Assembly: GCF_003812745.1 (NCBI RefSeq)
Contig: NZ_CP033831.1
Location: 2,976,001-3,040,000 of the forward strand
Length of the DNA stretch: 64,000 bases
Source: Serratia sp. FDAARGOS_506
GTDB lineage: Bacteria; Pseudomonadota; Gammaproteobacteria; Enterobacterales; Enterobacteriaceae
Direction: 5' to 3'
Numbering within the stretch: position 1 is the stretch's first letter; the number at the start of each line of letters is the position of its first letter. The notes beneath the pieces are model-generated. The model saw only the letters and a program-made list of their open reading frames with translations. It was not told the DNA's origin and did no database searches. Both the position numbers and the translations under genes were made by a program. Shown piece after piece: positions 34,128 through 54,327 of the stretch.

Positions 34128-34159
34128 CAACCGATTATAAAAAGAGATGTAAAAAATTT

Positions 34160-35368: not shown

Positions 35369-35461
35369 CCATAGGGTGAGAATCTGATTTTTACGTCTAG
35401 GATGAGTTACGAGTTCAATAAAATCAGGCAAGCCATATCCGGATGTGTTAAAGAGGGGATG

Positions 35462-36520
35462 ATGATTTATATTAACGGTAGGTTTTTAACCCAAAAGACA
35501 ACCGGTGTACAACGTTTTGCCGAAGAGGTCGGAAAAGCGCTAGTTGGCATACGGAATGATGTCGTCTTCCTTGTGCCTGAAAAAACTCAGGTAGTGAAAA
35601 AAGAGTTTCTATCTAACTTTAAAGTGCAAGAAGTTAAAGGTGGTAACGGGCATTTTTGGGAGCAGTTTACTTTGCCCAAATACCTGAAGCGATTAAATTC
35701 TCCGTTACTCCTTAACCTATGTAGTACTGCTCCTGCATTCTATAAGAACAAAATAGTTACACACCATGATATCACCTATGTCCGATTCCCTGAAAGTTTT
35801 TCGAAGCCGTTCCGGTTATGGTATAGGGCTTTAGTTCCTATTATGATAAAAAACTCGAAATGTTTGCTAACAGTCAGTGAGTTTTCTAAAAAAGAAATTT
35901 CGACATTTTATCGTTGTGAAAACAAGCGGGTAGAAGTAATAAGCAATGCAGTTAGTAAGGAGTTTCAGCCACCACAGCCGTCTTTAGGCAACAGTATACA
36001 TAGTAGTAATCAATATGTGCTTGCCGTATCTTCACCTAATTATCATAAAAATTTTCATGGGTTAATCGAGGCGTTCTCTGCAAGCAACCTTGATATTAAA
36101 TTGAAAATTATAGGTGATCGAGCCGGTACTTTCAGTAAAGTAAAATTCTCTGAAGATGACCCAAGGATTGAGTTTCTCGGCCGGGTTAACGACGACGAGT
36201 TGGTTGCTCTTTATCAGAATGCCAAATTTTTTGCATTTCCATCATTTTATGAAGGCTTTGGGATACCTCCGTTGGAGGCCCAGGCTTGCGGTTGTCCCGT
36301 TATATCATCAGATCGAGCTTCTTTGAAGGAAGTGCTTGCCGACAGTGCTGTGTACTTTTCACCTGATTCAAAAGCAGAAATTATTGAAGCTCTGGAGTCT
36401 GTAGACAAGGATGCATCTCTGAGAGAAAGTCTGAAAAGAAAGGGTGAGAATAATGTTACCCGTTTTTCCTGGAGGTCTTCTGCTGAAAAACTGAATAAAA
36501 TTATTTCAGAAGTTCTGTAA
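35462..36520 (+). CDS. GT4-family glycosyltransferase
   Basis: Retaining GT-B glycosyltransferase of 352 residues from ATG 35462 (MIYINGRFLTQKTTGVQRFAEEV), the conserved start of a common GT4 group; an upstream ATG at 35402 adds 20 non-conserved residues. The acceptor loop includes TGVQRFA, and the donor lobe has FPSFYEGFGIPPLEAQACGCPV with the E-x7-E catalytic motif. Similar proteins are often mannosyltransferases, which would fit the manC-manB pair in the next transcript, but donor and linkage are not shown. Confidence 0.82.
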   Translation: MIYINGRFLTQKTTGVQRFAEEVGKALVGIRNDVVFLVPEKTQVVKKEFLSNFKVQEVKGGNGHFWEQFTLPKYLKRLNSPLLLNLCSTAPAFYKNKIVTHHDITYVRFPESFSKPFRLWYRALVPIMIKNSKCLLTVSEFSKKEISTFYRCENKRVEVISNAVSKEFQPPQPSLGNSIHSSNQYVLAVSSPNYHKNFHGLIEAFSASNLDIKLKIIGDRAGTFSKVKFSEDDPRIEFLGRVNDDELVALYQNAKFFAFPSFYEGFGIPPLEAQACGCPVISSDRASLKEVLADSAVYFSPDSKAEIIEALESVDKDASLRESLKRKGENNVTRFSWRSSAEKLNKIISEVL

Positions 36521-36629
36521 TTAAGCGTGACGGTAAAAAGTACGGGATAATTCCATATTGAAAAATTGAAATTATTAATCCGTTAAAACTACAGCGGCTA
36601 TTAATGTTGGCTTTTAAGGTGAATCCGAG

Positions 36630-37781
36630 ATGAGTAATCCAAGTGTTGGCGTTGTGGCCGATTGGTTAGTAACCTACGCAGGGGCAGAGCGTGTCATAAA
36701 AGAGTTTATAGACATGTATCCAGAGGCTGATCTTTACTCTGTGGTCGATTTTCTTTCAGACGATGCCCGCAGTTTTTTCCATGGAAAAAAAGCAATAACA
36801 ACTTTTATTCAAAAACTACCTAAATCAAAAAAAGCTTACCAGAAGTATCTACCCTTTATGCCACTTGCGATAGAGCAGCTTGATGTTTCAAAGCATGATA
36901 TTGTGCTATCAAGCAGTCACGCAGTAGCAAAAGGGATTCTGACAGGCCCAGACCAGTTGCATATCAGTTACGTTCATTCCCCTATACGTTATGCGTGGGA
37001 TTTACAGCATCAATACCTGAAAGAGTCAGGTCTGGACAGGGGGCTGAAAGGACATCTTGCGCGATGGATTCTGCATAAAGTGAGAATGTGGGATTATCGC
37101 ACCGCTAACGGCGTTGATTATTTTATCGCCAACTCTGATTTTATTGCTCGGCGAATTAAAAAAGTCTACGGTCGAGATGCAGACACTATATATCCACCGG
37201 TTGATGTCGAGCGTTTTTCCTATCAGGAAAACAAAGAAAACTTCTATTTTACTGCATCACGTATGGTTCCCTATAAAAGAATCGATTTAATCGTCGAAGC
37301 TTTTGGTCACATGCCTGATAAAAGGCTTGTTGTGATTGGCGATGGCTCTGAAATGGCTAAAATCAAGGCAAAAGCTAAAAGCAATGTCGAGATTCTCGGC
37401 TATCAGTCAAATGAGGTTATGCTTGAGTGTATGCAGAAAGCTAAGGCATTTGTATTTGCTGCTGAAGAGGATTTCGGCATTACACCTGTTGAAGCTCAGG
37501 CCTGTGGCACGCCAGTGATCGCCTTTGGCAAAGGTGGCTCCTTAGAAACGGTGCGTCCATTTGGTGTATCGAAAGCGACAGGGGTATTTTTTGCCAATCA
37601 AACCGTTACTTCTGTTGTCGAAGCTATTGAGCATTTTCAAAACATTGAGTCATCTATTCTACCCCAAGATTGTCGTGATAATGCTTTACGGTTCTCCGTT
37701 TCACGTTTCCATAAGGAAATGGAGAAATATATAAGTGATAAATGGAAGGTGTTCAATAGCTCAAAAATGATTGAGTACTGA
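36630..37781 (+). CDS. GT4-family glycosyltransferase, probable mannosyltransferase
   Basis: 383-residue GT-B enzyme of the WbaZ-like group: VGVVADWLVTYAGAERVIKEF at the N-terminus, then SSSHAVAKGILTGPDQLHISYVHSPIRYAWD (typical of mannosyl/rhamnosyl GT4 enzymes), NSDFIARRIKKVYGRDADTIYPPVD and AAEEDFGITPVEAQACGTPV with the E-x7-E motif. AGGTGA precedes the ATG. GDP-mannose as donor is inference from family and from manC-manB downstream. It sits after a 109-base gap without recognisable structure. Confidence 0.83.
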   Translation: MSNPSVGVVADWLVTYAGAERVIKEFIDMYPEADLYSVVDFLSDDARSFFHGKKAITTFIQKLPKSKKAYQKYLPFMPLAIEQLDVSKHDIVLSSSHAVAKGILTGPDQLHISYVHSPIRYAWDLQHQYLKESGLDRGLKGHLARWILHKVRMWDYRTANGVDYFIANSDFIARRIKKVYGRDADTIYPPVDVERFSYQENKENFYFTASRMVPYKRIDLIVEAFGHMPDKRLVVIGDGSEMAKIKAKAKSNVEILGYQSNEVMLECMQKAKAFVFAAEEDFGITPVEAQACGTPVIAFGKGGSLETVRPFGVSKATGVFFANQTVTSVVEAIEHFQNIESSILPQDCRDNALRFSVSRFHKEMEKYISDKWKVFNSSKMIEY

Positions 37782-37842
37782 TATGAGTTATCTCTAGATA
37801 ATATTAGTGACCCACATGTCAGGCTTTTGAGAGGTTTTTATC

Positions 37843-38862
37843 ATGAAAAAATTAGCACATATTCTCCTGATTGCTTCAATTTATATTGCCTCTGGCTTTG
37901 GATACTCATACGCATTCTATTCTGGTGTTGGTGTACACCCTAATCAATTTAAAGGAAGTGCTGAGGAACTTATCGGTTTGATGGAGAAGTACCATGTTAA
38001 ATCATTTCGGACCGACTATCCATGGAGCTTGGTCGAGATTCAAAAAGGTGTTCTGAATAGCTCAAAAGATACGACCGACCGTGTTATCAGTATCGCTAAA
38101 GAAAGTGGGATTTCCCCTTTAATTATATTGGATTATGGGAATAAGAACTACGGTGGCGGCAAACCACTTACACCAGAAGCGTCAGCAGCTTTCGTGAATT
38201 ATGCAGCATGGACGGCAAGGCATTTTAAAGGTAAGGCTGATATCTTCGAAGTTTGGAATGAATGGTCGCATCGTAGTGCCAACTCGAACGAGGCCGTGAG
38301 TGAAGCCTCTGCTGAGGCTTATTTTCAGCTAGTTAAGGCAACTTCACTGGCAGTCAAAAAAGAGAACCCTGCAGCTAAAGTTATTGCAGGTGGTTTCAAT
38401 CCTCTTGGTAACGATGATAAAGAGTGGGGAATAATGTTGGTTAAATTGGGCATTCTCAACTATGTTGATGGTATTTCTCTTCATCCCTATTCTTATCAGA
38501 ACAGAACGGTTGCCGACCCAAAATTTAATCTTAAACGAATCGAACTCTATCAGGAAGAGTTGAGCCAATTTTTTGGGAAAATGGTGCCGTTTTATATTAC
38601 AGAGGTTGGATATCCAGCCTATCCAGGTGGAGCTAACCTGACTGACAGTGAAGTTGCACAGTACGCTTATGAGTATATGACATTAGCAAGCAAAATGAAC
38701 TATATTGCCGGTGTCTGGTGGTATGACTTTATCGATGATGGTAATGATAAGAATAAAAGAGAAAATAGCTTCGGCATCCTCAATAATGACTTGTCAGAAA
38801 AAATGGTGACGAAAGAATTTAGCGGTGCTTTAAAAACGATAAACAGTGACGCTGAGCGTTAA
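37843..38862 (+). CDS. Periplasmic clan-A glycoside hydrolase, PslG/GH39-like
   Basis: Secreted (beta/alpha)8 glycosidase of 339 residues with signal peptide MKKLAHILLIASIYIASGFG...YA. The catalytic pair of clan GH-A is visible: acid/base Glu140 in FEVWNEW and nucleophile Glu254 in YITEVGYP, with ISLHPYSY between. The N-terminal HPNQFKGSAEELIGLMEKYHVKSFRTDYPWSLVE resembles PslG and other GH39-like exopolysaccharide hydrolases. In Pseudomonas, PslG sits in the psl cluster and trims the polymer. Its place in the serotype block, just before a strong terminator, suggests it cleaves this strain's own polysaccharide. Confidence 0.82.
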   Translation: MKKLAHILLIASIYIASGFGYSYAFYSGVGVHPNQFKGSAEELIGLMEKYHVKSFRTDYPWSLVEIQKGVLNSSKDTTDRVISIAKESGISPLIILDYGNKNYGGGKPLTPEASAAFVNYAAWTARHFKGKADIFEVWNEWSHRSANSNEAVSEASAEAYFQLVKATSLAVKKENPAAKVIAGGFNPLGNDDKEWGIMLVKLGILNYVDGISLHPYSYQNRTVADPKFNLKRIELYQEELSQFFGKMVPFYITEVGYPAYPGGANLTDSEVAQYAYEYMTLASKMNYIAGVWWYDFIDDGNDKNKRENSFGILNNDLSEKMVTKEFSGALKTINSDAER

Positions 38863-38905
38863 ATAATCATATGCTTATATTGTAGTTGCCAAGTGTATAA
38901 CAGAT

Positions 38906-38939
38906 AAAAGCCATGTTTATTTTTAAACATGGCTTTTTT
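38906..38939 (+). terminator. Rho-independent terminator after the glycoside hydrolase
   Basis: AAAAGCCATGTTTA (38906-38919) pairs perfectly with TAAACATGGCTTTT (38924-38937) around TTTT, followed by TTG. It is a strong terminator inside the capsule block, so downstream genes need read-through by RfaH-modified polymerase or their own promoter. Confidence 0.9.
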
Positions 38940-39395
38940 GTGCGCAGTTAATTGAGGGTGCTAACTTATCAAGAGTTATTATATTGGTAAAATATACGTC
39001 TGTCCGCTGTTAGCACATTTTTCTATTTTTTCCAGTCAGAAATGGTTTTTTTAGGATTCCCACCTCAGCAGTTATCCTCACTCGTGCTATGCACCTCCTT
39101 TTTGCTTGTTCATTCCTTTTCCTTTTCTGGTCCAAAATTTTTTCTTATTAAATCATGTAATTATTCTCCGATTGCTTTATATGGATTAGGCCGAGGGGGA
39201 AAAATGGCTCTGTTTGCATTTTTATTTTAATCATGGTAAGAATATTGTTATGTGTAAAAATGTGAGCTGATGCAAAGAATCCGCCAATAAAAATGGATGT
39301 TTTTGGTTATTTGGGGATAATCTTTCCAGTGCTTTGCTCCTCAGTTGCTATACTTTTCTGGGCTGTTAATGGTTTTAGCTGTTTTACGAGGGTGT
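38940..39395. other. AT-rich gap within the capsule block
   Basis: About 450 bases between the terminator and the next glycosyltransferase. A short open frame at 39293-39454 could encode a 53-residue hydrophobic peptide (MDVFGYLGIIFPVLCSSVAI and on), overlapping the next gene out of frame; there is no convincing ribosome site and I do not call it a gene. A 62-codon frame at 39042 lacks a good start. The gap may hold a promoter for the downstream half of the block or the remains of a lost gene. Confidence 0.4.
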
Positions 39396-40454
39396 ATGTT
39401 AAAAGGCAGGAGAGTCGCGGTTATTTTTACAGCATCCATTATCGGTGGTCATGAATTAATGACGGTCGCTCATCTAAGGCGATACAAGAAAAAAGGGATA
39501 GAGATAACGTGCTACATTCCTTTTGATAACAAAAAGTTATCTGAGCTATTGCAAGTGTCAGAAATAAAACACGATCTCCATGATGTTCGCCATGGAAATA
39601 TAGAAATAATTCATGCCTTTTTGAATCCAAAGCATATTTTCCACGCTGCCAGCTTCCTTGCCAAGATAAAAAAACGACATGACTTCACCTTTGTAATTCA
39701 AGGTGATATAGAATTTGGCGCTGTTTTTATCAATGCAGGAAAAATGCTGGGGATGAAAAATATTATTAGTTACCTTCCGTATACGCATAGCTTCAAAAAG
39801 ATGGATAGCTGGGCTCCTTCCGTTAAAGATTTCTTTGCCAGGTTCGTATATAAAAACTGCAACTGTTTTTTTACCATCTGCGATGCGACAGCTAAGGATA
39901 TCATTGCCAAAAATAGTAATGCTGCTGTCCGGGTTTTGGAGAATTTTGTCACCAGGCCAGAAATATCTGAAATAAGAGGCGTCGGATATGAGTTTATACC
40001 ATCAAATGAAACGTTGAAAGTTGTCATGGCGGGGAGGGTACTTTTTCGTCAAAAGGGACAGGATATACTTATTAACGCATTAAAAAATATAAAATTCCCT
40101 CTTGAATTACGAGTTTTTGGCGATGGCCCGGATCTCAAGCGATTAAGGGAGTTGGCTGCTAATCTCTCTCCGAACATCGAAGTCGTTTTCTTAGGGTGGA
40201 AAAATAATGTTTGGGCAGATTCTAAAGATATAGACTTCATTGTCGTTCCATCACGATATGAAGGGGTTCCATTAATAATGCTTGAGTCTTTGGCGAGAAA
40301 CATACCTGTTATCTCACCAGCTAGAGACGGAATGATTAATTATTTGAAAGACGACTCACTTTATAATACTGGCAGTGCAGACTTCGAAGCGTATGAGTTG
40401 AGTAAGAAAATATCAGATTTTTTCTTCAAGAGAGAAAATAAAAAAGTGACATAA
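39396..40454 (+). CDS. GT4-family glycosyltransferase
   Basis: GT-B glycosyltransferase of 352 residues. The N-terminal lobe begins LKGRRVAVIFTASIIGGHELM, whose GGHE motif occupies the glycine-rich acceptor loop. The donor lobe has VVMAGRVLFRQKGQDILINAL, ELRVFGDGPDLKRLREL and VVPSRYEGVPLIMLESLARNIPV with the E-x7-E catalytic motif. GAGGG precedes ATG 39396; earlier in-frame ATG and TTG codons lack a ribosome site. The donor is unknown. It opens the second half of the serotype block after the terminator. Confidence 0.8.
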   Translation: MLKGRRVAVIFTASIIGGHELMTVAHLRRYKKKGIEITCYIPFDNKKLSELLQVSEIKHDLHDVRHGNIEIIHAFLNPKHIFHAASFLAKIKKRHDFTFVIQGDIEFGAVFINAGKMLGMKNIISYLPYTHSFKKMDSWAPSVKDFFARFVYKNCNCFFTICDATAKDIIAKNSNAAVRVLENFVTRPEISEIRGVGYEFIPSNETLKVVMAGRVLFRQKGQDILINALKNIKFPLELRVFGDGPDLKRLRELAANLSPNIEVVFLGWKNNVWADSKDIDFIVVPSRYEGVPLIMLESLARNIPVISPARDGMINYLKDDSLYNTGSADFEAYELSKKISDFFFKRENKKVT

Positions 40455-40543
40455 CCAGTGTATGCCTTTCTATTTTTATAAGGGTATTAAAAATTTTTCT
40501 TGTTGACTGAAGTATGATGCCAGTGAACAGGAAGGGAGGGGGC

Positions 40544-42067
40544 ATGAACAATAGGCAAACGGTGCTACTTAATTCTTTTGCTTTATATGGTCGAACGTTG
40601 ATATTGATGTTTGTCACTTTGTATACCTCGCGTATGGCGCTAAATTCTCTTGGCGTTTCTGATTTCGGTCTCTATAGCCTTGTTAGTAGTGTCATCTTTT
40701 TGTTTTCTTTCATTCAAAATGTTTTTTCACTTTCCACGCAAAGATTTCTTACGGTTGAGGTGGCAAAAGAAAGTGAGAAATTTGAAAAAAGGTTTGCCTC
40801 TATTATTATCATGTACTTGGGGATCTGTATCCTTGTCTTTTTTTTGGCGGAAACAGTAGGCTTATGGTTTGTTTTGTCGCAAGTGAATTCTTCAACCGTA
40901 AGCACTAACGATATCTTCCTGTTATACCAATTCACAATAATAACCCTCCTTTTTCAAATTATGCAGACACCCTTTATGGGATACTTTCTCGCCACGGAAA
41001 AGATGTCTGTTTTTGCTAAGGTTGGCGTATTTGATGCCTTTCAACGTTGGTTGATGGTTTTTATATTCTCGTCTTTCGACTTTCAAAATAAAGTTGTTTC
41101 TTATTCTTGTCTTGTTCTCATTGGCTTTTTTTTTGGTTTTATTGTGTACGTTTATTCTTGTTCGAAATACGTTAGGTTATATGGAGGGTTTTTCTCAAGA
41201 GATATTGACTTGGTCTTTTTAAAGGAGGTTCTGTCGTTCTCTCGTTGGCCATTGTTAGGTGCGTTCAGTATTGTAAGCGTTTCCCAATCAATTGCATTCT
41301 TAGCTTATTACTTTGTAGGGTTGGTCGCTAATGCTTCTATCTGGTTAGCTGAACAGGTCCTGAACGCCTTTAATCGGGTTACTGGTGCTTTGCAAATGGC
41401 CTTTGCTCCGAAAATAATTAAGAGTGGCTCTTTGGGGCATTATGATGAGATGAATGACTTGATTTTTCTATCTTGCAAACTGACTGCATTTGTCACGATA
41501 TTGTCAGGTGTGCCTATTTTTGTTTTTGCTGATTTCGTGAGCGCTGTATGGCTTGGTAATGTGCCCGATTATCTTCCCAGTTTTATTCGAATTGTCATTG
41601 TTTATGTGTTCATTGACTCTTTATCCAACCCTTTTGTTACTGCTATATATACAAAGGGGGAGTTAAAAAGATATCAATTAGTCATATCTATTATTCTTGG
41701 GTTTTCTGTTCTGTTGATGACTGCTATGTTTTTCTTGCATTATTCAATCTATTTTGTTCTTTTGATAAGGGTGCTGTGCGTGCTGGTACTGCTCGTGTTG
41801 AGGGTTTTGTGGATGCAAAGTATTTTTCCTCTCTGTAACCTGAATGTTTTTTTGGTTAAGCTTCTTCCAAGATTTTTTATTGTGGCGATAATTTCAGTTT
41901 TGACTTGTATTTATATTAAGGAGTGGGTTGTTGATGGTTATTTTTCTTTGTTAATAGTTTGTTCTTTTAACTTGTTTCTTGTTGCTGTAATGTTCTTCTT
42001 TATCGTTTTTGATGCTGATGATAGGGCATCACTTCTCAAGTTGCTTAGGAAACTGAAGTACAGTTAG
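40544..42067 (+). CDS. wzx: Wzx-type capsule repeat-unit flippase
   Basis: Multi-spanning inner-membrane protein of 507 residues with 12-14 helices, MATE/MOP superfamily. NSFALYGRTLILMFVTLYTSRMALNSLGVSDFGLYSL is the characteristic flippase start; LSTQRFLTVEVAKESEKFEKRF, FNRVTGALQMAFAPKIIKSG and DSLSNPFVTAIYTKGELKRYQ are further family segments. AGGGAGG lies just before ATG 40544. It presumably moves undecaprenyl-linked repeat units for the Wzy candidate upstream. It is distinct from the orphan flippase at 7,000-8,439. Confidence 0.85.
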   Translation: MNNRQTVLLNSFALYGRTLILMFVTLYTSRMALNSLGVSDFGLYSLVSSVIFLFSFIQNVFSLSTQRFLTVEVAKESEKFEKRFASIIIMYLGICILVFFLAETVGLWFVLSQVNSSTVSTNDIFLLYQFTIITLLFQIMQTPFMGYFLATEKMSVFAKVGVFDAFQRWLMVFIFSSFDFQNKVVSYSCLVLIGFFFGFIVYVYSCSKYVRLYGGFFSRDIDLVFLKEVLSFSRWPLLGAFSIVSVSQSIAFLAYYFVGLVANASIWLAEQVLNAFNRVTGALQMAFAPKIIKSGSLGHYDEMNDLIFLSCKLTAFVTILSGVPIFVFADFVSAVWLGNVPDYLPSFIRIVIVYVFIDSLSNPFVTAIYTKGELKRYQLVISIILGFSVLLMTAMFFLHYSIYFVLLIRVLCVLVLLVLRVLWMQSIFPLCNLNVFLVKLLPRFFIVAIISVLTCIYIKEWVVDGYFSLLIVCSFNLFLVAVMFFFIVFDADDRASLLKLLRKLKYS

Positions 42068-42078
42068 AGGGGGTTGTA

Positions 42079-43056
42079 ATGACAAAGTATGGATTTCTCA
42101 CATATGAAAGTGATCTTTACCGTAAAAGAGGGTGGATTAATTTAGGTGATTATGTACAAACTCTTGCCGCCAGGCAGTTTCTCCCTTCATGTGATATCCC
42201 AATTCCACGTGATGCTATAGGCAGTTATCATGGGGAGCCTGTGAAGATGATAATGAATGCATGGTATATGGACTCACCAGAAAATTTCCCACCCTCCTGT
42301 AACGTTCATCCCTTTTATACGTCTGTGCATATTAATTCTTCGGTTGAAAATAAAATATTTTCTACTGAAACTATTTACCACCTGAAGCAACATGCTCCTA
42401 TAGGATGCCGGGATTTCTATACGGTAAACTTGCTCAAGAAATATGGTATACCTGCATATTACTCGGGGTGTATGACTTTAACATTAGGCAAAACATATAA
42501 GCGAAATTCCTGCTCGGATGATATTTATTTTGTTGATGTTATGTATGACGCCTTAACACCGTTTGAACTCATGCGGCAACCTCTGCGATTGGCCAAACGA
42601 ATTCTTAATGGGCGTGTGGCAGAGTTTTATCATAAGAAAAAGGTTCTTAAGGAATGCTTCGATGCGGAGCTATTAAGGAAAGTCAAAGTAGTGACTCAAA
42701 TAGTTCCTTACGCTCCCTATCAAGTCGGCATTGAAATGGCTCATGATTTTTTAATAAAACTTTCTTCGGCTAAGTTGGTTGTCACGTCACGTATTCATAC
42801 CGCATTGCCTTGTTTGGCGATGGGGACACCTGTCATTTTTATCAATGGTGGCTTTAAAAACAAGATAGATAATTGCCGCTTTGATGGTCTGCTTGATTTT
42901 TTTAATCGAATTGATGTTGATGGTAGAGGGAGGGGGACGAGAAATTTTGGGTTGCCAAACGATAAAATAAATAATGATACAGTTATCACGAATGGCGATA
43001 AGCATCTTGATTATTCATGCTCTTTGGTTATGGATTGTATGAGGTTTATTGATTAG
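42079..43056 (+). CDS. Polysaccharide pyruvyl transferase family protein
   Basis: 325 residues of the PS_pyruv_trans (WcaK/CsaB-like) family. Seen are the N-terminal GWINLGDYVQTLAARQFLP, APIGCRDFYTVNLLKKYGIPAYYSGCMTLTL (conserved R-D and signature SGC-TLTL) and the C-terminal SSAKLVVTSRIHTALPCLAMGTPVIFI with the SRIH/GTPV donor motif. Such enzymes add ketal-linked pyruvate from phosphoenolpyruvate to a repeat-unit sugar, though some family members act otherwise. A GGGGG-rich ribosome site lies just upstream, 11 bases after wzx. It is the last capsule gene before slaA. Confidence 0.82.
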   Translation: MTKYGFLTYESDLYRKRGWINLGDYVQTLAARQFLPSCDIPIPRDAIGSYHGEPVKMIMNAWYMDSPENFPPSCNVHPFYTSVHINSSVENKIFSTETIYHLKQHAPIGCRDFYTVNLLKKYGIPAYYSGCMTLTLGKTYKRNSCSDDIYFVDVMYDALTPFELMRQPLRLAKRILNGRVAEFYHKKKVLKECFDAELLRKVKVVTQIVPYAPYQVGIEMAHDFLIKLSSAKLVVTSRIHTALPCLAMGTPVIFINGGFKNKIDNCRFDGLLDFFNRIDVDGRGRGTRNFGLPNDKINNDTVITNGDKHLDYSCSLVMDCMRFID

Positions 43057-43366: not shown

Positions 43367-46006
43367 ATGGCTTCTCAAGTTTTGCTGTACCAGAAAGTTG
43401 TGGCAGCGATTCAATATGCTGTTCTGGGTCATAGTACTTTTACCGGTCCAGCGGCTTTTGATGCTGATGCTGGCCAAATTCGGACGGGACAAATTACCGC
43501 ACAGACATACGTGGGTAACCTGCTGGCTTCTGCTGAAGGGCAAGCCTTGTATGGCTCAAGCACTTCATTGGATATTTTAAGAACGATTTATACCAAGGTT
43601 TATGGTACTGCACCGGCTGACAGCGTCCTCCAGGGCATTTTGGGTACTACGTCGCTGAATAGTGCTATCTATGGCGCAATTGATAACTTATTAAACTATA
43701 AGCAGTTCGACAGTACTAACCTGGCTGCACAAACCACCCTCGACAACCACGTTGATGCTCTGCTGTATAGTAATTACGGTACTGCGGCGTGGAATCAGTG
43801 GAGCGTAGCGCTGGCCAATCAAGAGCAGGTTGCCTCGCTTTATTTGGCTGCTCCTTATCGAGCTGCCGATGCCAGTGGTTTGAGTTTTTGGACTACTTAC
43901 TTATTGCAGCCAGGAAACACATTCGCGCTTCTGACTCAAAAACTTCTGGCTTCCTCAGAGTTTCAGCAGAAAGGAGCCAATTTGACCGGTGATGCGTTCA
44001 TTCAGCACATTTTTAATGGCGTGTATGGTGTGAACGCTACTGCTTCTCAACTAGCGACTTATAACGCCTTGGGAACGGACAAATCTGTCATTACGCAGGC
44101 TATCATCAATGACTTACGTAACTCGACGGCTACCGATGCCACTACGGTTACGCAACAGCATGCCTTTGAGTACCAGATTGGCACCAGTCTGGTTTACAAC
44201 ACGGCAGCAGCCTTGTCTTCATCTGCTTCAGGTGGTAATGCCATTGGTACGATCAACTCGGGGCTGTCCCACCAGATCAGCAATGCTGAAACGGCGGTAT
44301 TGACTGATGTTCAACTCAATGCCAGCACAGCCAGCCTGGTCAACCTGAAGTTCGCCGATCACTTGGCTAACCTGACCATCAACGGCACCAGCGCAGCGAC
44401 GGTGAACCTGTCTGACAACGGCGCCAGTTCTGGGGTTGCTGTCACCGTCAACAACGGCAACATCATCCTGAACGCCAGCTCGGGCGCAGACAACGTGGTC
44501 GTCACTTCGACGGCAAACATTGCTACCGGCACTGCACAGTTTAACCTTGGCGCCGGCAACGACAGCCTGCACTGGGCGGGGAACGCAGTTTCTGGCGGCG
44601 CAAACACCGTTGCCAATACCGTCAAGGCTGACGGCGGCACCGGCACGGATTCCATCTCTGCCAACTTTATCACCAAAACCGTGGTGACTAACCAGAACGG
44701 CTTGGGCATTCGCACCAGCACCGTGACCAGCAACGCTAACAATTTCTCGAACTTTGAGCAGATTGATCTGACCGGTTATATCGGTAAGTCTGTCGGTACG
44801 TTGGTAACCACACCAGTGATTGGTTCTCCGACCACCACCAGCGTCACTACGCCAACCAACACCTTCGACTTTGGCCTGACCAACGGCACGGCTACGGTAG
44901 AAGGCACTACGGGCGGCACGGTCACCCAGAACGCAGCGGCGACCAACCTGGGGACGCAAGGCTTCGTGATCTCCGGCCTGGCTAACGTCAACGTCATCAA
45001 TGCCGCCGGCGGTAGCGCCGCGCAGCTGGAAGTGAAAGGGGACGCGACCTCAGCCAGCACGCTGAACTTCACCTTCGTCCAAAACGCCACCGACCACTTC
45101 AACATCAACTTTGATGCGGTGAGTTCGGCGAACGTGAATGCCGGCGCCATCAGCCTGAACAGCAGCAGCAGTGCGCTGTTGGGCACCGCGCTGACGACGG
45201 TGAACGTGGCTTCCGGTGGTACCGGTGCGTTCAACAACATTCTGTCTCTGGCTGGCACCAATGCGCAGGTTCAGAATATCAACGTGACCGGCGATCATGC
45301 GCTGAATCTGACCGTGGGCGCGGGCTACAGCAACGTGCGCGACATCAATGCGTCTGCCAATACCGGTGGTTTGAACCTGGATTCAAGCCATGCGGGTACC
45401 GGTGACGGCATTATCGTACAGCTGCTGAAAGCCTTGCCGTTGAGTGCGGCTACCACTGCGCTGCTGACGCCGCTGCTGAACACGCTGGGTCTGAACGGTT
45501 ACCAACTGACGGTGGAAGGGACATCAAAGGCCGACAGTTTCAACGTGCTGGGTAACACCACGCTGACTGGCGGTAACGGCGCGAATATCTACGATCTGAA
45601 ATCCAGTAACTCGCAGGCGGGGGTCACCATCACCGACTTCAGCACCGCGAAAGATAAGATCGTTGATGCCGCTTCCGGCCTGACCTTGTCCAATACCGGC
45701 TCGGCGGTATCAGACTACGGTACTCGTTCTGCGGATACGCTGGATGCGCTGCTGGGGTCGTTGATCGGTGGCCTGACCACCGGCGTCGTCGGCCTGCTGG
45801 GGGGCATCCTGGGGCTGAGCAATCCAAACTCGTTAACCGGGAAAGTGGGTGTGGCCTCGGTGGTGTTCAGCGGTACAGGCAACAATGCTGACTCTTATGT
45901 GATTATTGATAACAACAATAACCACACGCTTGATGCCAACGATACGGTCATTTACCTGACTGGCCAGAACCACCAGCAGTTGGTGGATTCTCTGCACTAC
46001 GCCTGA
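43367..46006 (+). CDS. slaA: RsaA-like S-layer protein SlaA, type I secreted
   Basis: Surface-layer protein of 879 residues without a Sec signal. Residues 1-285 form an N-terminal region including a DUF4214-like motif (157-200: ASLYLAAPYRAADASGLSFW then QKLLASSEFQ). Residues about 290-830 are Thr/Ala/Asn/Gly-rich beta repeats with scattered RTX-like turns (GAGNDSL, GGTGTDSI, LTGGNGANIYD). The C-terminus (NADSYVIIDNNNNHTLDAND, VIYLTG...) parallels the secretion end of Caulobacter RsaA. lipBCD follows directly; S. marcescens LipBCD is known to export SlaA. GC rises sharply near 44,230. Shorter than the roughly 1,000 residues I recall for described SlaA. Confidence 0.88.
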   Translation: MASQVLLYQKVVAAIQYAVLGHSTFTGPAAFDADAGQIRTGQITAQTYVGNLLASAEGQALYGSSTSLDILRTIYTKVYGTAPADSVLQGILGTTSLNSAIYGAIDNLLNYKQFDSTNLAAQTTLDNHVDALLYSNYGTAAWNQWSVALANQEQVASLYLAAPYRAADASGLSFWTTYLLQPGNTFALLTQKLLASSEFQQKGANLTGDAFIQHIFNGVYGVNATASQLATYNALGTDKSVITQAIINDLRNSTATDATTVTQQHAFEYQIGTSLVYNTAAALSSSASGGNAIGTINSGLSHQISNAETAVLTDVQLNASTASLVNLKFADHLANLTINGTSAATVNLSDNGASSGVAVTVNNGNIILNASSGADNVVVTSTANIATGTAQFNLGAGNDSLHWAGNAVSGGANTVANTVKADGGTGTDSISANFITKTVVTNQNGLGIRTSTVTSNANNFSNFEQIDLTGYIGKSVGTLVTTPVIGSPTTTSVTTPTNTFDFGLTNGTATVEGTTGGTVTQNAAATNLGTQGFVISGLANVNVINAAGGSAAQLEVKGDATSASTLNFTFVQNATDHFNINFDAVSSANVNAGAISLNSSSSALLGTALTTVNVASGGTGAFNNILSLAGTNAQVQNINVTGDHALNLTVGAGYSNVRDINASANTGGLNLDSSHAGTGDGIIVQLLKALPLSAATTALLTPLLNTLGLNGYQLTVEGTSKADSFNVLGNTTLTGGNGANIYDLKSSNSQAGVTITDFSTAKDKIVDAASGLTLSNTGSAVSDYGTRSADTLDALLGSLIGGLTTGVVGLLGGILGLSNPNSLTGKVGVASVVFSGTGNNADSYVIIDNNNNHTLDANDTVIYLTGQNHQQLVDSLHYA

Positions 46007-46384: not shown

Positions 46385-48151
46385 GTGAATCAATTTATCC
46401 CGCGCAACGAAATTGCGGATGTTATACGCACGCGCAGTAAAGTCTTCTGGACCGTCGGTATATTCACTGCGTTTATTAACCTATTAATGTTGGTACCTTC
46501 CATTTACATGCTCCAGGTTTACGACCGGGTGCTTCCTTCGCGTAATGAAATCACACTGTTAATGTTGACGCTGATCATGCTGGGGATGTTCGGCATGATG
46601 TCCTTGCTGGAATACGTGCGCAGCATGGTGGTGATCCGTATCGGCAGTCAGCTGGATATGCGGCTCAATACGCGCATTTATACTGCGGCTTACGAGGCGA
46701 ATTTAAAAAACGGTTCCTCCGATGCCGGCCAGATGTTGAGCGATCTGACCAACGTGCGTCAATTCCTGACCGGAAGTGCGCTGTTCGCCTTCTTCGATGC
46801 GCCCTGGTTCCCGATCTATCTGCTGGTGATTTTCCTGTTTAACCCTTGGCTGGGGTTGTTCGCACTCGTGGGCTCTTTACTGTTGATCGCCTTGGCAGTA
46901 ATCAACGAAGTGGTGTCGAAAAAGCCGCTGGCGGATGCCAGCCGGCTTTCAATCATGTCAAGCAACCTGGCCAGCACCAACTTGCGTAACGCCGAAGTGA
47001 TCGAAGCGTTGGGAATGTTGCCCAACCTGAAGGGGCGTTGGTTCGGTCTGCATCAGCGCTTCCTGAACAGCCAACGCATCGCCAGCGAACGGGCATCTCG
47101 TGTTACATCGATCACTAAGTTTGTGCGTCTGTCGCTCCAGTCGCTGGTTTTGGGCCTGGGGGGCTGGCTGGCGATCGATGGGCACATCACGCCGGGCATG
47201 ATGATCGCCGGTTCAATTTTGATGGGGCGTACTCTGGCGCCGATCGAACAGGTGATCAACGTTTGGAAAAGCTGGAGCTCTGCCAAGCTGGCATACCAGC
47301 GCTTGGTGCGTTTGCTGGAACAGCATCCGCCGCGCGGTACCGGCATGTCGCTGCCGCGTCCGGAAGGGGTGATTTCAGTTGAAGGGGTGACCGCAACGCC
47401 ACCTGGCTCGAAGGGGAGCGCGGTGCTGCATAACGTCAACTTCGCGATTCAGCCGGGAGATGTGCTGGGGATTATCGGGCCAAGCGCTTCAGGCAAGTCT
47501 ACGTTGGCGCGCCTGCTGGTCGGCATCTGGCCGGTTAGCGAAGGTATTGTGCGGCTGGACAACGCCGACATCTACCAGTGGAACAAGGACGAACTGGGGC
47601 CTTACATCGGTTATCTGCCGCAGGATATTGAGCTGTTCGCCGGCAGCATCGCGGAGAACATCGCCCGCTTCAACGAGCTGGACTCGGTGAAAGTGATTGA
47701 GGCCGCCAAGTTGGCCGGCGTGCATGAGCTGATTCTGCGCTTCCCCAATGGCTATGATTCGGTGATCGGCAACGGTGGCGCCGGGCTTTCCGGCGGTCAG
47801 AAACAGCGTATCGGTTTGGCGCGTGCGCTGTATGGCGATCCGTCTCTTATCGTGCTGGATGAACCCAACTCCAATCTTGACGATGCCGGTGAGCGGGCGT
47901 TGAACCAGGCCATTACGTTCCTTAAACAGCGGAATAAGACGGTGATCCTGATTACGCACCGCACCAATCTGCTGGCGATGACCAACAAGCTGTTGCTGCT
48001 GGTTAACGGGAACGTCAATGCGTTTGGCCCAACGCAGCAGGTGCTGCAGGCCTTGGCGAATGCGCAAAAAGCGCAGGTACCTCCGCAAGCGGCGCGTGCG
48101 GTGAACTCCGAGCCGGATGAAGGCGATATTCCTAAAACTCAAATTAATTAA
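46385..48151 (+). CDS. lipB: Type I secretion ABC ATPase LipB
   Basis: Inner-membrane exporter subunit of 588 residues, the length of S. marcescens LipB and similar to PrtD. There is no C39 peptidase-like N-domain. Six helices (FWTVGIFTAFINLLMLVPSIYMLQVYDRVLPSRN first) lead into the nucleotide-binding domain: Walker A IIGPSASGKSTLARLL near residue 365, signature LSGGQKQRIGLARAL and Walker B LIVLDEPNSN. It recognises C-terminal signals of SlaA, and in S. marcescens also lipase LipA and the metalloprotease. GTG start with AAGGGCAG. First of three closely packed genes. Confidence 0.95.
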   Translation: MNQFIPRNEIADVIRTRSKVFWTVGIFTAFINLLMLVPSIYMLQVYDRVLPSRNEITLLMLTLIMLGMFGMMSLLEYVRSMVVIRIGSQLDMRLNTRIYTAAYEANLKNGSSDAGQMLSDLTNVRQFLTGSALFAFFDAPWFPIYLLVIFLFNPWLGLFALVGSLLLIALAVINEVVSKKPLADASRLSIMSSNLASTNLRNAEVIEALGMLPNLKGRWFGLHQRFLNSQRIASERASRVTSITKFVRLSLQSLVLGLGGWLAIDGHITPGMMIAGSILMGRTLAPIEQVINVWKSWSSAKLAYQRLVRLLEQHPPRGTGMSLPRPEGVISVEGVTATPPGSKGSAVLHNVNFAIQPGDVLGIIGPSASGKSTLARLLVGIWPVSEGIVRLDNADIYQWNKDELGPYIGYLPQDIELFAGSIAENIARFNELDSVKVIEAAKLAGVHELILRFPNGYDSVIGNGGAGLSGGQKQRIGLARALYGDPSLIVLDEPNSNLDDAGERALNQAITFLKQRNKTVILITHRTNLLAMTNKLLLLVNGNVNAFGPTQQVLQALANAQKAQVPPQAARAVNSEPDEGDIPKTQIN

Positions 48152-48205
48152 GCCGTGAACTGGCCTGGCGGCGCTGTTGCGTCGCCGGCAGTCAAAGGAG
48201 TTGGT

Positions 48206-49537
48206 ATGTCTACGCATATTGGCGAGCCGAATGACTCGTACTCAGAACAAATCCCGCTGGATGAGCGCCGTTATACCCGCCTCGGATGGCTGGCGCTGGG
48301 TGTAGGTGTGTTCGGTTTCTTGGCCTGGGCGGCGTTTGCGCCTCTGGACAAAGGGGTGGCGTCGCCGGGATCGGTAACCGTTTCCGGCAACCGTAAAACG
48401 GTGCAGGCGCCGGCCAGTGGCATCATCAAAAATATCGTGGTGAAAGACGGCGACAAGGTGAAAGCCGGCGAAGTTCTGGTGCAGTTGAGCCAGGTGCAGG
48501 CACAGGCACAGGTCGATTCGCTGCGCGATCAGTATTACACCACGCTGGCGACCGAAGGGCGCTTGCTGGCTGAACGGGATGGTCTGAGCAAGGTCACTTT
48601 TTCCCCTGTTTTCGCTCAGGTTAAGGATCAGCCGCGTGTCGCGGAGATCATTGCGCTGCAGACGCAGCTGTTCGCCTCCCGTCGCCAAGGGCTGCAGAGT
48701 GAAATTGACGGTTATAAGCAGTCGATGGACGGGATCCGTTTCCAGTTGAAAGGCCTGCAGGACTCACGCGCCAACAAACAGATCCAACTCTCCAGCCTGC
48801 GTGAGCAGATGAATAGCATGAAACAGCTGGCGGCGGACGGTTACCTGCCGCGCAACCGCTACCTGGAAATACAGCGCCAGTTCGCCGAGGTGAACAGCAG
48901 CATCGATGAGACCGTCGGGCGGATTGGCCAGCTGCAGAAGCAGCTGCAGGAGTCTCAGCAACGTATCGATCAGCGCTTCGCCGACTATCAGCGCGAAGTC
49001 AGAACGCAACTGGCGCAAACCCAAATGGACGCCAGCGAGTTCCGCAACAAACTGCAAATGGCCGATTTCGATCTGGGCAACACCGCCATCACTTCACCGG
49101 TGGACGGCACCGTGGTCGGATTGAATATCTTCACTCAGGGGGGCGTCGTGGGAGCGGGTGACCACCTGATGGACGTGGTACCCAGCCAGGCGACATTGGT
49201 GGTGGATTCTCGCCTCAAAGTTGACCTGATCGATAAGGTGTACAACGGGTTGCCGGTGGATCTGATGTTTACCGCCTTCAACCAAAACAAAACCCCGAAA
49301 ATTCCGGGAACGGTCACGCTGGTTTCCGCCGACCGTCTGGTCGACAAGACCAATGGTGAACCTTACTACCAGATGCAGGTCACGGTCTCGCCAGAGGGCA
49401 TGAAAATGCTCAGCGGTGAGGACATCAAGCCGGGGATGCCGGTGGAGGTGTTCGTGAAAACGGGGTCGCGCTCGCTGCTGAGCTATCTGTTTAAACCTAT
49501 TTTGGATCGCGCTCATACTTCATTAACCGAGGAATAA
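48206..49537 (+). CDS. lipC: Type I secretion membrane-fusion protein LipC
   Basis: HlyD/PrtE-family adaptor of 443 residues, as S. marcescens LipC. One N-terminal helix (LGWLALGVGVFGFLAWAAFAPL, about 28-49), then the split lipoyl domain (VQAPASGIIKNIVVKDGDKVKAGEVL and, after the hairpin, NTAITSPVDGTVVGLNIFTQGGVV), a long coiled-coil hairpin (about 160-300) and the beta-barrel end. AAAGGAG five bases before ATG 48206 fixes the start; 17 upstream codons in frame are ignored. It bridges LipB to LipD in the periplasm. Confidence 0.95.
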   Translation: MSTHIGEPNDSYSEQIPLDERRYTRLGWLALGVGVFGFLAWAAFAPLDKGVASPGSVTVSGNRKTVQAPASGIIKNIVVKDGDKVKAGEVLVQLSQVQAQAQVDSLRDQYYTTLATEGRLLAERDGLSKVTFSPVFAQVKDQPRVAEIIALQTQLFASRRQGLQSEIDGYKQSMDGIRFQLKGLQDSRANKQIQLSSLREQMNSMKQLAADGYLPRNRYLEIQRQFAEVNSSIDETVGRIGQLQKQLQESQQRIDQRFADYQREVRTQLAQTQMDASEFRNKLQMADFDLGNTAITSPVDGTVVGLNIFTQGGVVGAGDHLMDVVPSQATLVVDSRLKVDLIDKVYNGLPVDLMFTAFNQNKTPKIPGTVTLVSADRLVDKTNGEPYYQMQVTVSPEGMKMLSGEDIKPGMPVEVFVKTGSRSLLSYLFKPILDRAHTSLTEE

Positions 49538-49539
49538 TT

Positions 49540-50916
49540 TTGATTCATTCAAAACGACAGGCTGCCGGTCTGGTTATCGGCACCCTTTTGTTTGCGATGT
49601 CTGCGCCGGTTTATTCGATAGGGATTTTAGACGCATATTCGCTGGCATTAGAAAAGGACCCGACCTTCCGGGCGGCTATAAAAGAAAAAGAAGCGGGAGA
49701 TGAGAACGAAAATATCGGCAGGGCGGGGCTGCTGCCGAAGGTATCGCTGAACTACCAGAATTCGCCGCGTAACTGGCAAACACAGAAATACCCGCAAAGC
49801 GATTTCTTTGGCAATATTACGGAAGCGACGCGGCGGCAGCAGTACCGCAGTTACTCCAGCTCGGTGACGTTGACGCAGCCGCTGTTCGATTATGAGGCCT
49901 ATGCGCGTTACAAAGGCGGTGTGGCGCAGACGATGATGTCGGACGAACGCTATCGCGGCAAACTGCTCGACCTGGCGGTAAGGGTGATCAGCGCCTATGT
50001 CGAAGTGGCCTATTCCAAAGATCAAATCGCCCTGGCCGAGGCGCAAAAAGCGGCCTATAAAGAGCAGCTGGCGTTGAACGATCGGCTGATGAGCGCGGGT
50101 GAGGGGACGTTGACCGACGTATCTGAAACGCAGGCGCGCTACAGCCTGGCCGAAGCTCAGGTGATCGAGGCACGCGATGCGCTGGATGCCGCGCAGCGCG
50201 AGCTGGAGGTGATCATCGGCGTACCGTTGAATCAACTGGATGAGCTGCAGGTCTTACGGCCGGGCAAGTTCCAGGTGGCGCCACTGATCCCGTCGAAGTT
50301 CGAAGAGTGGCAAAAGATCGCCCTGGAGAATAACCCGGTGCTGGCCGCCTCGCGCCACGGCGTCGATGCGGCAAAATACGAGGTAGAGAGAAATCGCGCC
50401 GGCTTTATGCCGAGTGTGCAACTCTATGCTTCGCACTCGGAGAACGATTCCAGCAGCGACAACACGGTTAACCAGAAATACCGCACCGACAGCATCGGGG
50501 TGCAGGTGAGTTTACCGATTTACTCCGGCGGCGGCGTGGCGGCCTCAACTCGGCAGGCGGCGGCGCGCTACGGCCAGGCGATGGCTGAAATGGATACGCA
50601 AGTGGGCTCGACGCTGAACGATCTGCGCAAGCAGTTCAATCTGTGCATCAGCAGTCGCGCCAAACTGGCGGCCTACGAGCTGGCGGTGAAGTCGGCAACC
50701 ACGCAGGTGACGGCGACCCGGCAGAGCGTATTGGCGGGGCAGCGCGTTAACGTCGATGTGCTCAACGCCGAACAGCAGCTCTATAGCGCCCAGCGAGATC
50801 TGGCTTCTGCCAAGTACACCTACATCAAGTCCTGGATTACCCTGCTGAGCGACTCCGGCACGCTAGACGAGAAGGATGTGCTGCGCGTGGCGCAGTATTT
50901 TGCCGCAGGCCATTGA
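49540..50916 (+). CDS. lipD: Type I secretion outer-membrane channel LipD (TolC family)
   Basis: TolC-like trimeric outer-membrane protein of 458 residues. A TTG start gives a plausible signal peptide (MIHSKRQAAGLVIGTLLFAMSAPVYS, cleaved before IGILDAYSLAL); GAGGAA lies about six bases upstream, and the next ATG (49597) would destroy the signal. Two OEP repeats are seen: GILDAYSLALEKDPTFRAAIKEKEAG and NNPVLAASRHGVDAAKYEVERNRAGFMP, plus QVSLPIYSGGGVAASTRQAAARYGQA. It starts two bases after lipC. A terminator follows. Confidence 0.93.
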   Translation: MIHSKRQAAGLVIGTLLFAMSAPVYSIGILDAYSLALEKDPTFRAAIKEKEAGDENENIGRAGLLPKVSLNYQNSPRNWQTQKYPQSDFFGNITEATRRQQYRSYSSSVTLTQPLFDYEAYARYKGGVAQTMMSDERYRGKLLDLAVRVISAYVEVAYSKDQIALAEAQKAAYKEQLALNDRLMSAGEGTLTDVSETQARYSLAEAQVIEARDALDAAQRELEVIIGVPLNQLDELQVLRPGKFQVAPLIPSKFEEWQKIALENNPVLAASRHGVDAAKYEVERNRAGFMPSVQLYASHSENDSSSDNTVNQKYRTDSIGVQVSLPIYSGGGVAASTRQAAARYGQAMAEMDTQVGSTLNDLRKQFNLCISSRAKLAAYELAVKSATTQVTATRQSVLAGQRVNVDVLNAEQQLYSAQRDLASAKYTYIKSWITLLSDSGTLDEKDVLRVAQYFAAGH

Positions 50917-51520: not shown

Positions 51521-52945
51521 ATGTCCAAGATAGTTCCGGTAATTATGGCCGGAGGAACGGGTAGCCGCTTATGGCCTTTGTCTAGAGAATCTTTTCCTAA
51601 ACAATTCCTGTCGATTGACGATAGTGGTTTAAGTCTGTTGCAGCAGACGTTAGTGCGCTTGGAGAACGCTTCCAATCTAGAGATTGCGGCACCTTTAGTG
51701 ATATGTAACGAAGAGCACCGTTTTTTGGTCGCAGAACAGTTGCGTGAGATCGGCCAACTGGGGACAAATATAATTTTGGAACCTATGGGGAGGAATACTG
51801 CACCAGCTGTGGCTTTGGCGGCTCATCTGGCGGCAGAAGAAGCCTTTGACGGTATGCTTTTGGTATTGGCTGCCGATCATTTGATCACGAAAGTGAGCGA
51901 TTTTCATGAGGCAATCAATACGGCTACTCAGTTTGCCACAGAAGATCGGCTGGTGACGTTTGGTATTATCCCTCAGCATCCAGAGACGGGGTATGGGTAT
52001 ATTAGACGTGGCGACAGCCTCTCTAGGGAGTGCTTCAAAGTTGATGCCTTTGTTGAGAAGCCTTGTCTGGAAAAAGCAAAAGAATATATCGCTTCCGGCG
52101 ATTATAGCTGGAACAGCGGTATGTTTATGTTCAAGACGGAGAAATTTCTCAGCGAGCTGGAAAAATTTAGCCCAGAGATTTACCAAACGACTAAAAAATC
52201 AGTCATGGAGAGCCAACGCGATATGAATTTCATTCGCGTGGAGCAAGAAACCTTCCAATGTTGCCCGAGTGACTCCATTGACTATGCCGTGATGGAAAAA
52301 ACCCAGGATGCCGTTGTGATCCCGATCGATGCAGGATGGAGTGATGTCGGATCGTGGTCGTCATTGTGGGATGTGTCTGCAAAGGACCATTCGGGAAATG
52401 TGAATGTTGGGGAGGTTATCTCCATTGATTCAAATAACAATTACATATCTTCTGACTCTGCTCTGGTGGCTACGATAGGGTTGCATGACATGGTTGTTGT
52501 TACGACCAGCGATGCCGTGCTTATTGCCACCAAAGATAAGGTTCAAGAGGTGAAGAAAATCGTCGAGGAACTGAAAAAGCGCAATCTTCATCATTTCCGT
52601 CATCATTCGGCCTCCTACCGGCCCTGGGGCAAGATCTGCGATATTGATAGCGGCACGCATTTCCAAGTGAAGAAGATCATTGTTCGGCCAGGGGAAGGAC
52701 TGTCTGTGCAACGACATCTTCACCGTGCTGAGCATTGGGTCGTCGTGAGTGGGGCGGCAAAAGTCAATGTTGATGATAAAGAATTCATCTTATCAGAAAA
52801 CCAGTCTACCTTTATCCCCGCTGGTAGTGTTCACACGTTGGAGAATCCAGGAAAAATCGATTTGGAAATAATTGAGGTCAGATCGGGGCATTATCTGGAA
52901 GAAGATGATATTGAGCGTTTGCAAGATCGATATGGCAGAGTTTAA
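51521..52945 (+). CDS. manC: Mannose-1-phosphate guanylyltransferase ManC (CpsB)
   Basis: Makes GDP-mannose from GTP and mannose-1-phosphate; long type with a C-terminal mannose-6-phosphate isomerase-like cupin. It has 474 residues. The nucleotidyltransferase signature [21 protein letters not shown] is at the N-terminus, with [15 protein letters not shown] and FVEKP; the cupin has [49 protein letters not shown] precedes the ATG. First gene after the second ops; manB follows after a 14-base gap. Confidence 0.95.
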
Positions 52946-52959
52946 GAAAGGGTTTGGCA

Positions 52960-54327
52960 ATGCAAAAGTTAACGTGTTTTAAAGCTTATGACATTCGGGG
53001 AAAACTGGGCGAAGAGCTGAATGAGGACATTGCGTACCGTATCGGGCGAGCCTACGGTGAGTTTTTGAAGCCTAAGAATATCGTGTTGGGCAGCGATGTG
53101 CGGTTAACCAGTGAAAACCTGAAACTGGCTCTGGCGAAAGGTTTACAGGATGCAGGCACCGACGTTATCGACATCGGTTTAACCGGGACTGAAGAAATTT
53201 ATTTCGCCACAACCTATTTAAAAACTGATGGTGGCGTGGAAGTCACCGCCAGCCATAACCCTATCGATTACAACGGCATGAAGTTGGTGCGCGAAGGCTC
53301 TCGCCCGATTAGCGGCGATACCGGGTTACGGGCAATCCAAGAACTGGCGGAGAAAAACCAATTTCAGATGCCGACGGCAACGCGCGGTAACTATGTTCGC
53401 CAGGACGTATTAGGGGCTTATGTAGAACATATTCTGTCCTACGTCGACGTGAAAAATTTCAAACCGTTGAAGCTGGTGATCAACTCGGGCAACGGCGCGG
53501 CGGGGCATGTGATCGATGCTATTGAAGTGAAACTGAAGGCGTGGGGCGTGCCGCTAGAGTTTATCAAGGTGCATCACCAGCCGGACGGCACTTTCCCTAA
53601 TGGTATTCCTAACCCATTGCTGCCTGAGTGTCGTGCGGATACCGCCGATGCGGTGCGTGAGCATGGCGCTGATATGGGCATTGCGTTCGACGGCGATTTC
53701 GATCGCTGCTTCCTGTTCGATGAAAAAGGCGATTTCATTGAGGGCTATTATATCGTTGGCCTGCTGGCGGAGGCCTTCTTGCAGAAACAGCCGGGCGCGA
53801 AGATCATCCACGATCCACGTCTGAGTTGGAACACCATTGATGTGGTCACCGATGCCGGGGGCGTACCTGTGATGTCGAAAACCGGCCATGCTTTCATTAA
53901 GGAACGCATGCGTGCGGAAGATGCCATTTATGGCGGAGAAATGAGCGCCCACCACTATTTCCGTGATTTTGCTTATTGCGACAGTGGCATGATCCCGTGG
54001 CTGCTGGTCGCTGAACTGGTCAGTGTGAAGGGAGAAACTCTGGGGCAGTTGGTGCAGGATCGCATTGCCGCCTACCCGTCCTCCGGTGAGATCAATATCA
54101 AGTTATCGAACCCAGAGAGTTCGATTGAAGGTGTTAAAAACTACTATGTTTCGAAAGCAAGTTCGGTTGATTATACCGATGGCATAAGCGTTGAGTTCCC
54201 AGAGTGGCGTTTCAACCTTCGCTCATCAAATACAGAACCTGTAGTTCGACTTAATGTAGAGTCTAGAAATAATAAAAAATTGATGGAAGAAAAGGTTAAG
54301 GAAATTCTGAATCTGTTGAGTTTATAA
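52960..54327 (+). CDS. manB: Phosphomannomutase ManB (CpsG)
   Basis: Converts mannose-6-phosphate to mannose-1-phosphate for ManC. It has 455 residues, matching E. coli CpsG. The phosphoserine loop is VEVTASHNP with Ser98, the metal-binding loop is FDGDFDRCF and the sugar loop is [10 protein letters not shown]; the C-terminal phosphate-binding loop is [17 protein letters not shown] 52960 is preferred over a TTG two codons earlier; AAGAAAGGG is upstream. Second gene of manC-manB-wcaJ. Confidence 0.95.

Follow-up and report, generated by a model that had tools for sequence, protein, structure and literature searches.

Introduction

Surface layers (S-layers) of Gram-negative bacteria are described as anchored to lipopolysaccharide (LPS) in passages of PMC6978808 and PMC8559796, and the latter describes anchoring segments there as less variable than lattice segments. 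For RsaA of Caulobacter crescentus, the relevant passages of PMC6978808 report an N-terminal domain that binds the LPS O-antigen. Here we analyze slaA, the gene of the S-layer protein SlaA, and the capsule genes beside it in a stretch of 64,000 nucleotides from Serratia sp. FDAARGOS_506 (NZ_CP033831.1, positions 2,976,001 to 3,040,000; hereafter the window). RsaA resembles SlaA in being type I-secreted and in joining a helical N-terminal domain (predicted in SlaA) to a beta lattice body, and it is the best structural match to the predicted SlaA body. Unlike RsaA, with its O-antigen binding as reported in those passages, the N-terminal part of SlaA follows the capsule locus and not the O-antigen locus.

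In Campylobacter fetus, passages of PMC4943207 describe sapA- and sapB-specific glycan regions that adjoin the sap locus. The likeness to Serratia lies in type-specific S-layer proteins, type-specific glycan genes beside sap, and sapAB recombinants. However, C. fetus as described there has two types and the glycan is LPS, whereas in Serratia the N-terminal types are many, the glycan genes form a capsule locus, and the breakpoint falls within one gene. The initial annotation of the window spoke of a new mode of serotype exchange; this was too strong, because sapA/sapB, as presented in those passages, is a two-type precedent.

In PMC9000132 the capsule locus of Serratia marcescens ends at slaA, and relevant passages present the S-layer genes as a comparatively well-conserved flank that possibly aids recombination. 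The KL1-KL5 loci of that paper have the same order as ours, that is, galU to wzc, a variable block, and the S-layer operon. It takes slaA as the conserved edge, and its relevant passages do not mention N-terminal variation. The main text of PMC12175726 contains neither “Serratia” nor “capsul”. No title or abstract on capsule-matched SlaA anchors was found in the literature searched, which was without preprints and most subscription journals. Klebsiella wzi is a capsule-attachment gene in the K locus, and its allele predicts the K-type. In wzi the whole gene is the allele and no S-layer is involved, whereas in Serratia the part that follows the capsule is a single domain within a chimeric gene.

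We consider it likely, with a probability of about 0.7, that capsule exchange in Serratia extends into slaA and replaces a capsule-specific anchor, with separate recombination of the body, of lipBCD and of the O-antigen locus.

Correlation between SlaA and Capsule Type

The identity of the SlaA N-terminal part (residues 1-288) was positively correlated with the similarity of the capsule gene sets (Mantel test with 9,999 permutations, 24 Serratia loci, r = 0.645, p = 1 × 10−4). No correlation was found for the body over the same loci (r = 0.034, p = 0.32). In the 26-locus version, to which Enterobacter JUb54 and Raoultella BIGb0138 were confined, r was 0.639 for the N-terminal part and 0.196 (p = 0.037) for the body. 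Among the 325 pairs of these 26 loci, the seven with the highest N-terminal identity were the very seven whose capsule sets were most alike. The S-layer type goes with the linked glycan genes, as in the glycan-matched S-layers of C. fetus sapA/sapB.

The slaA body was matched in 26 of 30 same-genus genomes, and 24 Serratia loci were used. Genome G025, with about 36 kb around slaA devoid of capsule genes, was left out, as was G022, in which slaA (G022:C2:524140-527086) lies in two open reading frames (ORFs) of 511 and 503 residues and is apparently broken; lipBCD and capsule genes are still present there. The non-capsule slaA copies of G028 were excluded from the correlations. Because the genome sets contain one genome per species, the capsule-context comparison is between species. 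For each slaA, the capsule genes in the surrounding 12-39 kb were taken as a set, with limits given by a general rule or, in G014, G015 and G029, by hand rules; the O-antigen locus sets, from the same 24 genomes, had at most nine genes. The protein searches scored about 8,000 candidates sharing the most words.

We then resolved these relations along the protein. Against the 23 other Serratia capsule-locus copies, the window protein was 29-71% identical in residues 1-147 and 148-288 and 51-96% identical in three blocks of residues 289-879. The mean pairwise identity of 22 copies (20 Serratia, Enterobacter, Raoultella) was 37-53% over residues 18-209, 63% at 210-249, 80% at 250-289 and 69-92% beyond. 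The capsule correlation in 50-column windows was 0.39-0.69 up to residue 200, 0.28 at 201-249, 0.10 (p = 0.11) at 250-299, and −0.04 to 0.11 beyond. Capsule coupling fades between residues 200 and 300, where the predicted helices end and the RsaA-like body begins. This is the pattern that the initial annotation had named as support for its proposal, with about 285 N-terminal residues varying with the capsule and the rest conserved; neither uniform divergence along slaA nor one N-terminal domain across different capsules was found.

A locus from another genus of the family (G084) behaved as the hypothesis of a capsule-matched anchor predicts. Its capsule similarity to G005 was 68 (next best, 27), and its N-terminal part was also nearest to G005 (75; next, 56), but its body was not (69 versus a best value of 75).

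Species ancestry was rejected as the cause of N-type sharing, since N-terminal identity was not correlated with that of metG (r = 0.05, p = 0.25). Given metG, the correlation of the N-terminal part with the capsule was 0.649. Body identity was correlated with metG (r = 0.32, p = 0.005).

N-terminal identity was unrelated to O-antigen locus content in the 24 Serratia genomes (r = −0.03, p = 0.65). The body showed a weak correlation (r = 0.22, p = 0.004), perhaps through linkage on the other side. Three pairs (G018/G004, G011/G012 and G012/G016) had an O similarity of only 3 despite a common capsule and N-type; G027/G024 shared both with an O similarity of 32, and G003/G019 shared capsule, N-type and O-type (85). 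These values bear on the suggestion that the N-terminal part anchors to the LPS O-antigen and that its capsule association is indirect. RsaA offers a precedent in the passages of PMC6978808, and the O-antigen locus lies on the operon's other side. However, one N-type occurs with unlike O-antigen loci and the correlation is absent, although binding to a shared core would be invisible to this comparison. We regard O-antigen anchoring as improbable.

Several points limit the support for a capsule-matched anchor. When one locus was kept per near-identical capsule group (18 loci), the N-terminal correlation fell to r = 0.28 (p = 0.004), and that of the body was r = −0.06 (p = 0.66). Part of the pattern could arise from linkage by itself. 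There are also exceptions to the pairing of N-type and capsule, such as G007, which has sialic-acid genes (NeuB-family, cytidylyltransferase) and a flippase in common with G011, G012 and G016 and a different N-type. Because these common genes are not enough, any specificity of the N-terminal part would have to lie in linkage or in the structure of the repeat unit.

Chimeric slaA Alleles

The bodies of G018 and G014 are 98.8% identical and their N-terminal parts 47%, and their capsules differ. The same pattern was found in G027/G014 (body 99.3%, N-terminal part 43%) and G005/G007 (98.8% and 54%). Over 12 pairs with body identity of at least 95% and N-terminal identity of at most 62%, the best breakpoint had its median at residue 270 (quartiles 260-301, range 196-353). 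Chimeric alleles of this kind, which break at the border between the domains, agree with the earlier suggestion that an exchange of the capsule block could extend into slaA.

The pair G018/G004 shows the reverse arrangement. Their DNA is 97-100% identical up to about residue 300 and about 81% identical after it (breakpoint 309), and they have the same capsule genes as far as the G004 contig extends; because the capsule ends at the contig end, their capsule similarity of 73 is a lower bound. Since their metG genes differ by about 3%, the exchanged part in this pair is the body. Both sides of the slaA junction thus move, and the N-terminal part stays with the capsule.

We also compared 135 SlaA sequences, consisting of 115 of 121 public proteins and 20 loci from genomes and taken without capsule context. 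Of 9,045 pairs, 774 had a body identity of at least 97% with an N-terminal identity of at most 60%, and 63 had an N-terminal identity of at least 95% with a body identity of at most 90%. The N-terminal parts formed 29 clusters at 80% identity; some public proteins have shortened N-ends, and at least one cluster seems to be another cluster read in shortened form. This diversity would suit a history in which phages, predators or immunity imposed diversifying selection on an N-terminal part kept beside the capsule by linkage. However, such selection does not predict the pairing with the capsule, and the RsaA N-terminal domain forms the inner layer under the lattice in the passages of PMC6978808, so that it would be less exposed than the conserved body. 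This explanation is very improbable.

Composition Break within slaA

We fitted two-segment likelihood models to slaA. The GC content at third codon positions (GC3) changed at residue 294, from 0.452 to 0.730 (log-likelihood difference, 32), and plain GC content at residue 318, from 0.48 to 0.58 (difference, 12). Codon positions 1 and 2 had no comparable step (best difference 3.0, near the C-terminus). Residues 1-288 had 48% GC and the rest 58%. The break had been placed near position 44,230 (residue 288) from hand counts; its existence and place were right, but the counted ranges of 40-48% and 53-72% were wider than the measured values. The genes at 33039-43056 had GC3 of 0.35-0.40, wza 0.45, wzc 0.43 and the slaA N-terminal part 0.46; the slaA body had 0.73 and lipB, lipC and lipD 0.70-0.72. 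The initial annotation had called the capsule genes AT-rich and lipBCD GC-rich. The 5' part of slaA has a GC3 near that of the upstream capsule genes, and the 3' part has a lipBCD-like GC3.

The GC3 step recurs in relatives, and the slaA break is more than chance. Its mean was 0.237 in 20 loci with the slaA N-end toward the capsule, and 0.113 in eight others, six with an inverted slaA and two with slaA not in a capsule locus (Mann-Whitney, p = 2.6 × 10−4). Because it is weaker in the latter copies, the step is attributable more to linkage with the capsule block than to the domain itself. Three slaA paralogs (L029-L031) had N-terminal/body GC3 of 0.54/0.58, 0.56/0.62 and 0.71/0.71, a small or absent step. 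For both reasons, a start-of-gene or codon-usage effect was rejected as the main cause of the break.

Domains and Predicted Structure of SlaA

Pfam places DUF4214 (PF13946) at residues 191-232 (E = 2.2 × 10−7, 31.3 bits, gathering cut-off 23.2), which confirms the N-terminal region as DUF4214-like. AlphaFold2 models divide the N-terminal part into two modules, at residues ~5-134 and ~140-275, of about eight helices; the helical region ends at residue 274-275 and beta structure starts at 279-280. The GC3 change-point at residue 294 adjoins this predicted border. The body was predicted to be a beta-rich RsaA-like domain, as in the lattice bodies of RsaA-like proteins, and type I secretion genes lie beside slaA, as for RsaA/SlaA-type S-layer proteins. 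The body was called repetitive in the initial annotation; it does begin at the GC break, but its repeats are only short and weak in DNA.

A Foldseek search with the N-terminal part gave no match at E 0.001, and RsaA was absent among the 50 matches listed. The full-length VIA structure matches cover mainly residues 469-879 and give little information on the N-terminal part. Sequence search found no solved relatives of SlaA at E 0.1, and a profile search with the N-terminal part for solved relatives gave chance-level matches only.

In most relatives a third helical module, which follows window residue 148, makes the N-terminal part about 120 residues longer. The short form occurs in the window, G027, G024, G008, G001, G013, G025, Enterobacter JUb54 and Raoultella BIGb0138. 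Among the matches listed for residues 1-288 are SlaA-like proteins of about 865-880 residues named Klebsiella aerogenes or Raoultella, whose N-terminal parts are 50-60% identical to that of the window. One SlaA with a 60% identical N-terminal part (P0142) and one polymerase 47% identical to that of the window (P0124) have the same longest contig, of 5,658,553 bases; this single coincidence was given no weight. Two genomes of another genus (G214, G069; L175-L178) carry two tandem slaA-like genes of 876 and 877 residues. The two copies share 68-73% identity in the N-terminal part and 82% in the body, and neither lipBCD nor capsule matches were seen nearby.

Inverted Loci and Proposed Mechanism

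In seven Serratia genomes (G010, G011, G012, G016, G022, G023 and G029), slaA runs in the opposite orientation to lipBCD and the capsule genes. Inverted copies (L085, L087-L089, L091, L093, L095, L108-L114) occur in both the marcescens and liquefaciens groups. Their 3' end faces the capsule, and six of the seven genomes were usable. Between G010 and G011/G012, capsule similarity was 21, the N-terminal parts were 48-49% identical and the capsule-side bodies 89%; between G010 and G016 the values were 21, 47% and 85%. G023 and G029 differ from the rest in both parts and do not discriminate.

The main alternative is hitch-hiking only, in which the N-terminal part is too diverged to recombine alone and is carried beside the capsule block, so that no capsule recognition is needed. 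The forward arrangement puts the N-end against the block, the body is the first well-conserved sequence, and the GC3 step is larger in this arrangement, so linkage clearly matters. However, in the inverted loci the capsule-distal N-terminal part differs by capsule and the capsule-side body does not (G010 versus G011/G012), although this is not decisive. Linkage alone also leaves the N-terminal diversity unexplained. We consider hitch-hiking as the whole explanation unlikely.

The composition break, the domain boundary, the covariation with capsule rather than with O-antigen locus or species, and the chimeric alleles are observed. The preferred explanation, a capsule-matched anchor, would run as follows. 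SlaA would be a two-part S-layer protein in which the helical modules at the N-terminus (residues 1 to ~288) hold the layer to the cell and the RsaA-like body, exported by LipBCD, builds the lattice. The capsule block would be swapped by homologous recombination, with one crossover in the first conserved sequence beyond it, the start of the slaA body. Because the crossover falls there, the anchor would accompany the capsule genes, with body, lipBCD and O-antigen locus each recombining apart from them. The pairing would be maintained by each anchor recognising the capsular polysaccharide of its own type. By analogy with RsaA the N-terminal part is probably the anchor; we infer that it binds the capsule and that the pairing is kept by selection, beyond linkage alone. 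The S-layer probably sits on the capsule rather than on the O-antigen.

Gene Organization of the Window

The window genome belongs to the marcescens group within Serratia and has 4.86 Mb in two contigs. Eleven same-genus genomes encode a metG protein with 99-100% identity to its own. The gene order starts with two nucleotidyltransferase genes (galU/galF-like), wza-wzb-wzc, glycosyltransferases, the EpsG-family gene, the pyruvyl transferase and slaA. After slaA follow lipB-lipC-lipD, manC-manB-wcaJ-like genes, galE-like and galU-like genes and the O-antigen locus (wzm-wzt, glf). The features are listed in Table 1. The manC-manB-wcaJ-like genes, which in G011, G012 and G016 are located within the capsule block, are probably capsule genes as well. 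An O-antigen locus protein of 634 residues (window 60381-62285) has a DUF4422 and a family 8 glycosyltransferase domain.

Table 1. Features of the window around slaA (window positions).
Feature	Position	Strand	Basis or remark
wza-wzb-wzc, capsule export, upstream of variable block	29050..32899	+	Pfam
Variable capsule block	33039..43056	+	Pfam; GC3 0.35-0.40
Glycosyltransferase matches, five genes in capsule block	starts named: 33039 (weak), 35402, 36630, 39345	+	Pfam
EpsG-family probable polymerase	start 34160	+	Pfam
Weak GH39 match	start 37843	+	Pfam
ORF of 517 residues without Pfam match, probable flippase	start 40514	+	authors' label only
Pyruvyl transferase	start 42079	+	Pfam
slaA ORF	43367..46006	+	intact, 879 codons
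slaA residues 1-288	43367..44230	+	AT-rich, helical, capsule-linked N-terminal part (probable anchor)
slaA junction zone, residues ~250-330	44114..44356	+	helices end, GC3 change-point (residue 294), most allele breakpoints
slaA body, residues 289-879	44231..46006	+	conserved RsaA-like lattice part
lipB-lipC-lipD, type I secretion system	46385..50916	+	Pfam ABC transporter, HlyD, OEP
manC-manB-wcaJ-like sugar genes	51521..55793	+	Pfam, gene order
Start of O-antigen locus (galU, wzm, wzt, glycosyltransferase, glf), control	57618..63447	+	Pfam, gene order

Conclusions

We lean somewhat toward a wider reading for Serratia and its relatives: a swappable, type-specific helical domain would anchor the S-layer to the capsule and not to LPS, and a capsule switch would be a switch of capsule plus anchor with its crossover in the S-layer gene. 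In SlaA the variable part is the probable anchor, and it goes with the capsule, unlike the less variable anchoring segments described for other S-layers. If true, this would show how an S-layer is kept after a serotype change and would explain the recombination junction inside slaA. The 5' end of slaA would then be a marker of capsule type, and its variants would form a related set of domains suited to studying polysaccharide recognition by helical S-layer anchors. slaA would not be a neutral conserved edge of the capsule locus.
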